Positions 6,035 through 17,900 of a stretch of 22,614 nucleotides of DNA are shown here, piece after piece. The stretch spans positions 1 through 22,614 of IMG/VR virus record IMGVR_UViG_3300034101_002186, one strand, 5' to 3'. The stretch comes from a virus. Made by a program: the position numbers and the translations under genes. The notes under the pieces were generated by a model, which had not been told where the DNA came from, ran no database searches, and saw only the letters and a list, made by a program, of their open reading frames with translations. Within the stretch, counting starts at the first letter, position 1, and the number at the start of each line of letters is the position of its first letter.

Positions 6035-7003
6035 TCAGTCTCTTACGAAAAGGCCAATGATGAACATTTGAACGGATCTGGCAGCAAAGGTAACAAATCC
6101 AGCTAGGCTGCGATCCTTGCCATTGCCGAACTTAACAAACCGCTTGAACTCAGCGTAGTGAGCTGGAGCCTGTCCGCGAGCAATCGCACGACGTCCAATC
6201 CACCTATAGCCGCGGCGAATAGACTCACCCCACCAGCGGTCATGAAGCGCAGCCTCGCACCAGCGTTTAGCCTCAGCGAGCTCTCTGACATGAAAGGCTC
6301 CATTCTGAACGGCATGAGTGGCGATGACGCATCCCTTCTTTCCTTCAGCTTCAGCCATTTCTTTCTGAGTCTTAAGGGTTTGTTTTGTGAGATCCTCTTC
6401 TTGAATCCCTTTACGATAAGCTTCGATAGCTTGCTGCTGTGCAACACCTGCAGAGAGTTCCGCAAGCTGCTGCCCTTGAGCGGACTGCATAGTTCCGCCA
6501 ACCGTGCCCTCATATTCACCAAGGGCTTCGCGCTGACGCTGCGCCTGCTGGAGCATAAGGTTCTGCTCCTGCTGCGCTTGTCCAAGTGCAGACCGCTGTG
6601 CCATCTGAGCCTGAAGCGATGCAGCTGCTCCACCCTTAATTCCTTGTTTAGCAAGGGACGCCTGGAGTGCTCGATCAGCTTGGGCCTGCGCAGCCTGCTG
6701 AGTACCAGCTGCAGAAGCGCGCATAGCCGCAAGCTCTGGAGCCTGATAGCCTGCAAGTGCTGATTGACGCCTTTGCATAATATCGCGCTGCTCGGCTGCG
6801 ATAAGTTCAGAGTTAGTAAGGTCGCTAATGCGTTGCGGCTTTAACGCAGCATACTCCTCTTGTAGTTTTTTTTCACCAGCTGCTCGGTCCGCTTGTTTCT
6901 GCGCTGCTGCTGCTTCAGCTGCTTTTCGTTTCGCTTCTTTGCTAGTAGCTAATTCTGCATTAAACTTTTTCGCAGCCCCGGCAGCTATTTGTCTCGTATC
7001 CAT
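6035..7003 (-). CDS. 322-aa Ala/Gln-rich internal virion-type protein with a C-terminal cysteine domain
   Basis: Residues 1-215 are almost entirely Ala, Gln, Lys, Arg and Glu, and predicted helical. Glutamine-rich runs occur at 100-170. At residue 223 the composition changes to a compact domain that opens GCVIATHAV and contains RWCEAALHDRWWGESIRRGY around 247-266, then a conserved-looking HYAEFKRFV. It ends in a hydrophobic stretch FVTFAARSVQMFIIGLFV before the terminal RD. I recognise this C-terminal block as a type that recurs in phage virion proteins, but I cannot name the family with certainty. In gene order it follows the nozzle and accessory genes, the slot of T7 gp14, an ejected outer-membrane channel component. 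The C-terminal hydrophobic helix would suit membrane insertion. Start ATG has AGGTGA five bases upstream. Confidence 0.75.
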   Translation of the reverse strand: MDTRQIAAGAAKKFNAELATSKEAKRKAAEAAAAQKQADRAAGEKKLQEEYAALKPQRISDLTNSELIAAEQRDIMQRRQSALAGYQAPELAAMRASAAGTQQAAQAQADRALQASLAKQGIKGGAAASLQAQMAQRSALGQAQQEQNLMLQQAQRQREALGEYEGTVGGTMQSAQGQQLAELSAGVAQQQAIEAYRKGIQEEDLTKQTLKTQKEMAEAEGKKGCVIATHAVQNGAFHVRELAEAKRWCEAALHDRWWGESIRRGYRWIGRRAIARGQAPAHYAEFKRFVKFGNGKDRSLAGFVTFAARSVQMFIIGLFVRD

Positions 7004-12835: not shown

Positions 12836-14923
12836 TTAATTACCCACCCTTGAAAGAGTAACCCAGTTACTTCGATTATCTGCAAACGGACTAGTCGATA
12901 TTGATGCTGATCCCAATATGTATACTTGAGTTCCAGCTAATGCATAAAACTCCGTTGCCCCAGCAGATGTTACAATCACGCTTGCGGCAGTAGGAATTAT
13001 TGGTCGCCCAAGTATATATTCTGTTGAGCCGACCATAACACTGATTGACACATTGTTTCCGGACGTAAAAGTGTTTTGAGTCCAATATGATGCAGCAATT
13101 CTCCATGTGCCACTAATTGGAATGGTTACAATCCCGGTCGTTGTGTTATATATCGAATGGGAGTCATAATCTTTTGATGAATAAATTACTGTAACCGGAC
13201 TAGATCCTATTGTTGTCGTTGTCGACTTTACCCTAAGAGCAACCGTCTCACTAGCCGCGATAGTGGCGGGGCCGGAGAGACGTTCGATATTTAGCTGTGA
13301 CAGCCCAGCTGCTGTATTATCGCCAGCTATATTGTATGATGCTATAACCGACTGATTGACATAAATTTCTAAATAATCACCAGCATTTGCTTGCACAAGA
13401 AATGAAAATGGAGTGCCATGCTCTATTCCTGCTGTTCCATTTTTCGGAACCGACAGCTGTTGGACACGAGATCCAATTTTGTAAACTGCTATGGTAACAT
13501 CCCCAGTATTTGCTGTACCAGTGTTCCAGTAAAGCTGTCCATGTAAACGATATAGTCCACTTACTGGCACATTGTAGCGATTATTTGTTGTTATATCAAA
13601 AGATGAGTGTGTGTCGATTACTGAAGAATTAAAAAGCACTTTTGTCCAAGTGCCTGTAGATGCAATGAGTTGACCGGTAGCCCTTCTGACTTGAGCCGCA
13701 ACCACCCTCGTATCGGTGTCGTTGGACATTTGGACGGAGGATGAGAGGCCGACAACTTTGAAAGTAAAATCCGCAGAAATATATTTTGCCGCACCAACAC
13801 TATTAAAGTCCGCGTCATATAAATCTCTATTTGTTCCACGCTTTGCTAGAAAAACACCGGACGACTGTACTCTGACTCCATCAAGCTGCACATATTGGTT
13901 TGCGGTTCCAGTTAGATCCCCGTAAACCTCATAAAATCCGTGAACTGCCGTTCCACCAATATCTGGCGCGCTTGTAGTGTCTGGTGTGACGTTATTTGGT
14001 AAGCTGATTTTCCACGAAGTAGTTGCTGTTCTTGCTTGGCTTGGTACAGAAAACGCCACGCGCACATGATATGAGTCGCCTATTCTGCGAAATGCACCCG
14101 TTGCACTCGTAATGCCAGTCGCGTTAGTAATAGTTGGCGTGTAAGATTGCCAATCCGTTACTGGAGCACCGTACACTGTGGTCTGAGGGCCGCAGATTAC
14201 ATTGTCAATCGCGAGCACATAAGCAGAAGCAGACGTAGATGCTACATGGAAGCAAACACGGTAGCTCTGTCCAGTAGCTTGAGTCTGGAAGGTAGCAATC
14301 TGTCGCATGGTCGTTCCAACCGTTGCAGACTGTACAGTGTATCCAGCTGGCTGAATAACTACTGGAGTTCCAGATGGATCAGCGATCAAGTAGACCGTTA
14401 AATCTCCGCTGGCATAGGTTCCGCTTAGAACCTCGTAATCAAAGGTAACCGTCAAAACCTTGGCGCGATCTGCAAGGTCAATCGTGATGTCAGTAGCAAC
14501 GCCTTCGCCTTGGCGGTTTGCTGCATCTTTAGTGAAGTTGAAGTCAGCGGCCCCACGAAGAGGGGTAGTCGTCGAACGAGTCCAGGTAACGGTAGGTGAA
14601 CCACCAGTCCCGTCTACAGGGGCAGCACCAGCAGCGTCTGCATAGGTGCTCCATCCGGTCGTGTTAGTCGAAGCCGTAGGATTCGTAATGTAGTTGATCC
14701 CGCTCGTTCCAGCTCCAACTTCAGTCCAGTTAGTAGAGCTTCCTGAATCGTTCTTCCGGTACTGTTTACCGGAAGTCGTATTCAGAAGAATAGAGCCGGG
14801 ACTTGCGTCTACTGCAACGCTTGTCGGGTCTACAGTTGAACTGATAACGTCCGCCCCGCCGTTAAGCGAAAGCGTACCTTTCAGCGTTTTGACTTTTGAT
14901 CCTGCAAATATACTTGCTGGCAT
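12836..14923 (-). CDS. Tail fibre with two C-terminal C1q-like domains
   Basis: Four zones can be seen in this 695-residue protein. Residues 30-70 carry PGSI...GKQYRK...STNWTEVG, a short fibre motif also present in the 181-aa protein at the other end of the block. Residues 75-245 look like a carbohydrate-binding-type jelly roll (INYITNPTASTNTTGW ... VCFHVASTSASAYVLAIDNV). Residues 255-395 hold a further beta domain (DWQSYTPTITNATG). Residues 405-550 and 555-694 are two C1q/TNF-like domains, the first with NNRYNVPVSGLYRLHGQLYW and the second with TGIVTIPISGTWRIAASYW. C1q-like heads commonly trimerise at phage fibre tips and contact receptors. The C1q-encoding part is much more AT-rich than the upstream part, suggesting domain exchange. 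AGGAG lies ten bases before the ATG. Confidence 0.8.
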   Translation of the reverse strand: MPASIFAGSKVKTLKGTLSLNGGADVISSTVDPTSVAVDASPGSILLNTTSGKQYRKNDSGSSTNWTEVGAGTSGINYITNPTASTNTTGWSTYADAAGAAPVDGTGGSPTVTWTRSTTTPLRGAADFNFTKDAANRQGEGVATDITIDLADRAKVLTVTFDYEVLSGTYASGDLTVYLIADPSGTPVVIQPAGYTVQSATVGTTMRQIATFQTQATGQSYRVCFHVASTSASAYVLAIDNVICGPQTTVYGAPVTDWQSYTPTITNATGITSATGAFRRIGDSYHVRVAFSVPSQARTATTSWKISLPNNVTPDTTSAPDIGGTAVHGFYEVYGDLTGTANQYVQLDGVRVQSSGVFLAKRGTNRDLYDADFNSVGAAKYISADFTFKVVGLSSSVQMSNDTDTRVVAAQVRRATGQLIASTGTWTKVLFNSSVIDTHSSFDITTNNRYNVPVSGLYRLHGQLYWNTGTANTGDVTIAVYKIGSRVQQLSVPKNGTAGIEHGTPFSFLVQANAGDYLEIYVNQSVIASYNIAGDNTAAGLSQLNIERLSGPATIAASETVALRVKSTTTTIGSSPVTVIYSSKDYDSHSIYNTTTGIVTIPISGTWRIAASYWTQNTFTSGNNVSISVMVGSTEYILGRPIIPTAASVIVTSAGATEFYALAGTQVYILGSASISTSPFADNRSNWVTLSRVGN

Positions 14924-14944: not shown

Positions 14945-17900
14945 TCATCCGATGAAGTTAATTGCCACAATTCCACTCGATATAGCCGTAGTTGAATCAA
15001 GACGTTTCAAGCTAATCCGAGTACCGGCAGGGATTGAATGCTCAATCGTCTGGTCAGAACCCGGACCCATTACAAACTGAAGCACCTCAGAGAGAGCTGC
15101 ACCAGTGTAAACACCGATAAAAGCTCCAGTCGTATCAAGGAGCTGTAACTTCTTAGTAGCCGCAGCAGTCGAAGCCACAACTTGAGTCGGGTTAGATGCG
15201 CTGCCTGCAATGTTGGTCGAGCTAGTATCCAAGATGCCAGCGTCCAGAAGGTCAACAACCGACAAAGTATTGACGTCGACCTTTCCAATTGTATTGGTCC
15301 CGCTTGGCAGTGCAGCCACAATGTCAACCTGAAGCTCAGATCCGCTTACCGCATTGTCGATCAATTCAACCGCTGTTTTGATATCCGCGAGGGTGGCTTC
15401 AGTAGCCGCACCCGTTGGCAGGCTAATCGTTCCTGAAACGTTGTTGATATTCCACGTTCCAGACTGAGTAGCTGCTACGGTTCCAGTCACATCAGCAACC
15501 AATGCACCTGATGGGTTAACCTTAACAGCCACATAGCCACCGCCACCACCAGTCGTCTCACCAACGATAATCCCTTTAGTCAGGATAACCTGAGACTGAG
15601 AACTAAAGGTCTGGCTTGCCCGGTAGGAGCTTGGGAATAGAGCTGTAGGCTTAAGGTTACTCTGAAGTAGGAAAGTAGCCTGTGGGGCTGCTCCGTTCGT
15701 GTAGTTGATACGGAAGTATCTGAACTCAGCAGAGAGCTGATATCCGATACCGTTCGCACCACCAGGGAATGTCCAGAGATGGAAGTGATGAACCGATACG
15801 CCATCGAAGCTGTACTCGATACGAAGGCCATCAGTAGCAGAGGCTACGTCAGAGAATACACCTAAGTTAATCGAGTTGTAGTCTTTGATCTCAGTCCATG
15901 CGCCCGTGAAGTTTCCACCAGCAAGGAGAGGAGTCGAAGTCGTGTTATTGGCATCCATGACGCCTTCGATAAGCTTAACGTCCACCTGCATCTCATTGCC
16001 TGAGATAGCGTTATCGATAAGTTCAGCCGCTGTTTTAATCGCGGCAAGAGTAGTCTCCGTTGCAGCTCCCGTAGGTAATGCGCTCGAAAGAACGTCTACT
16101 TGAAGTTCTCCAGCCGCATCGGTCTTCAGTGCTCTATTTGTCGTCCCATCATTACCGAATACTGCTACTGAGTCAGTAGTTTGCGACAAGCTAACGGAGA
16201 TCGGGCTTGTTACATAGACATCAAGAGCGTTGCTCGTTGATCCAATAATGTTCCCAGAACCGTCTACAATTTGAGTCTTTTGGGAGCCGTCAGTCTGCGC
16301 CGCGCTCGTTGCGGCTCCGGTCGGAAGGGCTGAGGTAACAACATCGACTTGAAGTTCACTGCCGCTAACCGTGTTTTCAATCGCTTCGACAGCGGTTTTA
16401 ACTGCTAGAAGTGTAGTCTCTGTCCCTAAAGTCAAAACCGTAGCTTCAGTAGCGAGCGTACTTACAGTCGCTTCTGTCGCTAGTGTTGCAAGAGTCGCTT
16501 CCGTAGCAGCTCCTGTAGGGAGAGCAGAACTAACAACATCAACCTGCATCTCGTTGCCGGAGATCGCGTTATCAATGATCTGAACAGCGGTTTTGATATC
16601 TGCAAGAGTAGTTTCAGTAGCTGCGCCTGTAGGAAGTGCGCTAGATACTACATCTACTTGAACTTCCGAACCAGATACACATCCAGCTAGTGAAGTTGTA
16701 TCAGCTTCAATCGCTAGAAGCGTTGTCTCTGTTGCTGCTCCTGATGGAAGTGCCGAAGATACAATGTCTACCTGTAATTCGTTTCCGCTAACCGTGTTAT
16801 CAATCAGCTCTACTGCAGTCTTAATTGCATTAAGAGTCGTCTCGGTAGCAGCCCCAGTAGGCAATGCAGAGCTAAGAATATCTACCTGGAGTTCCCCTGA
16901 AGCATCGGTCTTGATCGCTCTGTTAACAGTGCCATCATACCCAAACACTGCTACCGAATCATCTGCTTCATCGAGATTAACATCGACGATGACAGGACTC
17001 TTTAAATTTACGTCGAGAGCATTAGAAGTTGAGCTAATGACGTTTCCAGAGCCATCGACAATCTGACTCTTTTGAGTGCCGTCAGTTTGAGCAGCAGCAG
17101 TCGCAAGTGTAGCGACAGTAGCCTCCGTGGCGAGCGTTGCTACAGTAGCTTCGGTGGCAAGAGTGCTTACCGTTGCCTCAGTCGCAAGCGTAGCAACCGT
17201 GGCTTCCGAAGCCAAAGTACTGACGGTAGCCTCTGTAGCCAAGGTGGCTACCGTGGCTTCGGTAGCAAGTGTGGCAACAGTAGCTTCAGTAGCCAGCGTG
17301 CTAACGGTCGCTTCAGTGGCAAGGGTAGCTACAGTGGCTTCAGTAGCCAATGTGGAAACAGTAGCCTCAGTTGCGAGCGTTGCTACAGTAGCCTCGGTTG
17401 CCAAAGTCGCTAGAGTAGCCTCAGTAGCTGCACCGGTTGGAAGTGCGCTTGAAAGCACATCAACCTCAAGCTCACCAGCGGCATTAGTTTTAATGACCTG
17501 AACAGCCGAGCCATCATAACCGCCGACTACTTTTACTACAGCAGGAAGAGCACCACCGTCAGCAGCCGTAGCTTCTTCAGAGAATGAAATCGATCCAGTG
17601 ATATTCACAGCCCCGGTCGAGTCAACCGATGGATATTTGTGCCGAAGAATTTTAAAAGTGACAGCTGCAGCAATCACTGAAGGAAGAGTCTCAGCAAGGG
17701 TAATGAGGTTAGCCGATACTTCCCAAACCTTTACTTCACGGCCTAAAAGGGCACCGCTCGTCAAAAGAATGACGTCACCCTTGAGAGCTGCGTGGGCAGA
17801 AGCTACGATTGAGTAAGCTGTAGAGCCAGCTTCAGCGGCGTCAGTGCCCACTTCATAAACAAATTGATGGGCTACAACCGTGGAGCCGTACTGAAGCTCT

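Follow-up and report, generated by a model that had tools for sequence, protein, structure and literature searches.

The gene P0001 carries twelve tandem copies of a nine-residue unit whose protein sequence is nearly constant and whose DNA spelling differs in every copy, while individual spellings recur, unit by unit, in the arrays of other phages. The window analysed here is a complete virus record of 22,614 bases, a virus contig from a metagenome collection. We regard the array as probably an ancient and diverged set of units, in which whole units are lost at short microhomologies and exchanged by phage-phage recombination.

The array and the protein that carries it

P0001 is an open reading frame on the minus strand (17980-14945), encoding a putative virion or fibre-like protein of 1011 aa that is a mosaic of repeated modules. 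The array occupies aa 186-293 (17102-17425, minus strand), where it is detected by Tandem Repeats Finder as well. Comparison of its twelve 27-bp units bears out the composition given in a preliminary description of this DNA: 10 of the 12 read TEATVATLA or TEATVSTLA, unit 1 being TEATLATLA and unit 9 SEATVATLA, and all 12 DNA copies are distinct, with leucine spelled as TTG, CTC, CTT, CTG or CTA and serine as TCC, AGC, AGT or TCG. Across the 66 unit pairs, DNA identity averages 0.706, and is 0.85, 0.95 and 0.31 at codon positions 1, 2 and 3, respectively. The comparison of synonymous with non-synonymous distances that the description had proposed as a check gives a Nei-Gojobori pS of 0.764, far above the pN of 0.092, with pS at 0.75 or higher in 35 of the pairs. 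Chance is excluded as the origin of a 12-unit protein periodicity spanning 108 residues.

Elsewhere in the gene, a further array of the TEAT type, shorter and more degenerate than the main one, lies at aa 493-528 (16397-16504, minus strand) and is found in the relative L003 too. The module directly after the main array, which begins TAAAQTDGTQKSQIVDG (aa 294-334; 16979-17101, minus strand), has a second copy at aa 558-598 (16187-16309, minus strand). An open reading frame on the plus strand runs antisense across the array (17127-17501); an antisense gene was rejected here, as every random synonymous recoding of the array leaves one antisense frame open, which makes the frame a by-product of the codons.

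In the predicted structure, an N-terminal all-beta domain (aa 41-116; 17633-17860, minus strand) is modelled with confidence (pLDDT of 87-93 by block, 59 in the last block), as is the beta fold of a C-terminal all-beta domain (about aa 905-1010; 14951-15268, minus strand), which is conserved in most relatives. The array, when modelled alone as a monomer, forms a single helix with a pLDDT of about 60, and it is disordered in the full-length model. Fold searches returned beta-sandwich matches to single domains of P0001, and those with the array gave no informative match. The units presumably make up a repetitive rod, spacer or linker of variable length between modules.

The structural genes recognised in the window, namely an SU10-type adaptor, a virion structural protein, a tail-fibre-like protein and a transglycosylase, all lie on the minus strand, like the array gene, placing P0001 in a virion gene neighbourhood of shared orientation. 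Searches of P0001 against PHROGs, NCBIfam and PDB sequences found no match, and Pfam gave nothing above the cut-off and one match below it, so that P0001 matches no characterised fibre family in these four collections; among phage isolates, the sequence search found just two weak matches, both to a middle domain. Judged by its neighbours and its architecture, P0001 is probably a phage virion protein, fibre or tail-associated. The adjacent gene, which encodes 695 aa (12836-14923, minus strand), matches PHROGs family 15750 (unknown function) over aa 421-521 and appears C1q-like by eye, so that the window may hold a run of adjacent fibre-like genes. A further ORF of 322 aa between the structural genes (6035-7003, minus strand) is rich in Ala, Gln and Glu, with a C-terminal third that is unlike the rest and contains Cys and Trp.

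Unit spelling within and between phages

Searches found relatives of P0001 at 63 viral loci and relatives of the array segment at 19, and every array relative in this analysis was drawn from metagenomic viral contig collections. The repeat pattern is rare, a fully degenerate two-unit version of it occurring in 12 stretches of viral contigs and in 1 of bacterial genomes. Several window units are identical at 27/27 positions to units of other phages: unit 5 to L004 unit 2, unit 10 to L004 unit 6, unit 11 (17129-17155, minus strand) to L004 unit 7, L003 unit 5 and L071 unit 6, and unit 12 (17102-17128, minus strand) to L004 unit 8 and L003 unit 6. Other units match at 23-26/27. Relative to shuffled unit order, order is conserved between the window and L004 (P 0.0002), L004 and L006 (P<0.0002) and the window and L006 (P 0.012), while conservation with L003 is weak (P 0.045 for the window, other L003 pairings not significant). 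Matched units across phages have a pS of 0.05-0.25 compared with 0.76 between units within the gene, a gap that stays large even though matching 27-bp units picks the most similar pairs and biases the orthologous value downwards. Grouping the 34 units of four phages at 23/27 yields 12 groups, one of which chains several window units.

Orthologous units are therefore more alike than paralogous ones, the pattern of an ancient repeat under purifying selection and the reverse of concerted evolution, where units within a gene are more alike than those of different genomes. An old array under strong protein selection was one of two explanations put forward in the preliminary description, and it fits what we find, with pS saturated, pN at 0.09 and the codon states of single units common to several phages. 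Purifying selection would hold the nine-residue sequence while synonymous sites drift to saturation, leaving each unit with its own DNA spelling. At column 6 of the unit, Ala and Ser switch repeatedly among the arrays of the window, L003, L004 and L006, and the Ser is spelled TCN or AGY even between units that otherwise look orthologous.

The second explanation was direct selection for codon heterogeneity, in which synonymous changes are favoured because unlike units resist slippage and recombinational loss. We compared the spellings with random draws from the codon usage of the rest of the gene, with within-array permutations and with 33 non-redundant repeat-bearing ORFs from related loci. 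In the window array, third-position identity is 0.313 against 0.333±0.031 from codon draws (P 0.28), the same-codon rate between units is 0.306 against 0.334 expected, and the longest exact repeat is 20 against 16.5±3.1 in the draws; the permutation test on the whole P0001 gene gives P 0.21. The window units are thus as different as random and not more so, and saturation suffices to explain them. Scrambling specific to the array was likewise rejected, since the larger non-tandem modules of P0001 (LPTGAATETTL...ELQVDVV type) are scrambled equally, with a same-codon rate of 0.319 against 0.360 expected. Same-codon rates do lie slightly under expectation in 4 of 5 arrays, and third-position identity falls clearly below it in L004 (0.258 against 0.337, P 0.015) and L071 (0.244 against 0.382, P 0.001), but these two are not independent, being one array minus a unit, with units in common with the window. 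L072, a 907-aa repeat-rich relative (ORF from about 2813, plus strand), is low across its whole gene, with codon sharing of 0.276 against 0.334 expected, but its uncorrected P of 0.003 is not significant after correction for the 33 genes tested. Of those 33 ORFs, codon sharing is below expectation in 2, as expected in 13 and higher than expected in 18. Codon draws, permutations and the survey all leave active codon repulsion unsupported, and we consider direct selection for heterogeneity improbable. The likeness to an engineered codon-scrambled repeat that had also been remarked upon leads no further, as nothing points to engineering and the contig is that of a metagenomic virus.

Scrambling might also be overrepresented through the way such arrays are recovered. 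On this view, arrays of identical units would be broken or collapsed by short-read metagenome assembly, with only scrambled ones seen whole and young arrays going unseen; every array relative used is a metagenomic viral contig, the L071 contig stops within its array, and other repeat genes in related loci have excess codon sharing (18 of 33). Our survey is biased towards scrambled arrays to the extent that assembly can lose long identical ones, 2-4 identical units being probably visible, but arrays as short as 2-4 units, within the reach of short reads, are scrambled as well. The observed scrambling is, moreover, real regardless of any arrays that were missed, and still needs explaining. As an account of the array, ascertainment seems to us unlikely.

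Unit number, and the probable loss, gain and exchange of units

Unit number differs widely among the relatives, with 12 units in the window, 6 in L003, 8 in L004, 8 each in L006, L007 and L008, 6 degenerate units in L069, at least 6 in L071, where the array is cut by the contig end, and no array in L009, L011, L013 and others despite similar end domains. L071 and L005 were handled as separate parts, their end-to-end join giving no continuous frame. The prediction in the preliminary description that unit number would be stable is false, even the near-clonal L004 and L071 being one unit apart. Its counter-case, homologues whose units are identical in DNA and vary freely in number, is found by half: number varies, but DNA-identical units are absent. 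A stable functional array, with a fixed role for each unit position, unit number under selection and losses only occasional, would agree with the codon states and unit order conserved between phages, but is very unlikely in view of 12, 6, 8, 8, at least 6 or no units among relatives whose N- and C-terminal domains are related, and of units so nearly identical as protein that distinct roles are themselves unlikely.

A likely loss of one unit is seen between L004 and L071, where an alignment of 4164 bp contains 1 mismatch and one 27-bp gap that corresponds exactly to L004 unit 3. The ends of this gap share a 7-bp microhomology, TGGCTAC. Because L004 unit 3 is matched by a unit of the window (25/27) and by one of L006 (24/27), loss is likelier than gain, although this is a single event near the end of the L071 contig, where an assembly error is possible. 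L004 and L071/L005 come from different IMG/VR samples and are near-clonal around the gene (1 mismatch in 4164 bp, 18 in 4336 bp) with one repeat unit between them. On the reading of an ancient, diverged unit set, units would be deleted one or more at a time at short microhomologies of this kind.

Gains of units appear to follow a different route. Among 47 distinct adjacent unit pairs from all loci there is no fresh adjacent duplicate, the best pair reaching 22/27 with a synonymous identity of 0.32. Simulated tandem duplication and loss fit the window poorly once their rate reaches about 0.5 events per unit per synonymous substitution per site (P 0.045), and no longer fit it at 1 event (P 0.007). 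L003 and the window, at a synonymous distance of about 0.11, are at least 6 units apart. Taken together, these results indicate that units are either imported already diverged or that duplicates are removed quickly. Gains may occur mostly through recombination with the arrays of other phages, which would supply already diverged units, while any identical unit arising by local duplication would probably be purged soon afterwards. Should identical duplicates be lost in this way, the survivors are scrambled and direct selection on codons is unneeded. Two pairs of non-adjacent near-copies, window units 2 (17372-17398, minus strand) and 11, identical at 25/27, and L006 units 4 and 8, would be compatible with unequal recombination, though chance alone yields pairs of this kind fairly readily (P 0.13 and 0.08), a maximum pair as high as units 2/11 having a P of about 0.13 under random codon draws.

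Exchange between phages extends past the array itself. The N-domains of the window and L004 proteins are 46% identical and their C-terminal codons match at 0.45, while in the matched units 3 of 62 synonymous codons differ, and in the next 75 aa 3 of 71, with divergence rising beyond. An exchange of the array alone, for which pS values of 0.054 in the units and 0.224 in the 95 aa after them were considered, was rejected on the codon counts: the 75 aa that follow the array are as close as the units, with divergence beginning later, and thus what was exchanged also takes in the beginning of the module that comes next. The array and the first residues behind it are present in L006 too, whose middle is unrelated from there on, and other P0001 segments have their best matches in different relatives. 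That the array is common to proteins with strongly diverged flanking domains implies that it moves by recombination. The P0001 gene is a mosaic, with the array among its exchanged pieces. A broader reading, which we put forward only tentatively, is that the phage population might share a pool of diverged, recognisable unit alleles, with protein length changing by unit loss and recombinational re-import; here, microhomologies would allow in-frame exchange and codon divergence would block runaway slippage.

Comparison with known repeat systems

Protein repeats with fast horizontal (paralogous) and slow vertical (orthologous) divergence have been described previously (PMC5120217). As in those repeats, the copies in the array diverge within the protein while purifying selection preserves each of them across related genomes; unlike in them, the protein units are nearly identical, with only the synonymous sites saturated, and entire units appear and disappear over short distances. 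The array belongs to this known class, in which orthologous units are conserved and paralogous ones diverged (PMC5120217); it is a new and clean example, while the principle is not new. It provides a clean natural case in which the protein repeats are frozen, the DNA is randomised and unit number shifts over very short distances, and it raises a general question that can be tested, namely whether natural arrays are scrambled by the time available to mutation or by the deletion of identical copies. In our case, time and deletion meet the evidence without direct codon selection.

Polyubiquitin genes, for which birth-and-death evolution with purifying selection has been discussed against concerted evolution (PMC10457151), are similarly composed of head-to-tail repeats with a nearly invariant protein sequence, many synonymous differences and variable number. 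Their paralogous copies are, however, described as resembling one another more closely than orthologous copies do, whereas the array presents the reverse and no sign of homogenisation. In addition, polyubiquitin units are 76 aa long, while those of the array are 9 aa long and are not released as separate proteins.

With mosaic phage tail-fibre and structural genes (PMC5967307, PMC8986868), P0001 shares conserved ends, a shuffled middle and segments matching different relatives. It differs from those genes in having a short-unit array among the exchanged segments, and it matches no characterised fibre family. Finally, the array resembles codon-scrambled synthetic repeat genes, which likewise encode one peptide in many codon versions, with recombination lowered (PMC12365220). 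Those genes are designed, whereas codon choice in the array equals random draws from the usage of the gene, as mutation alone would give. Codon-scrambled repeats, then, need not be engineered.
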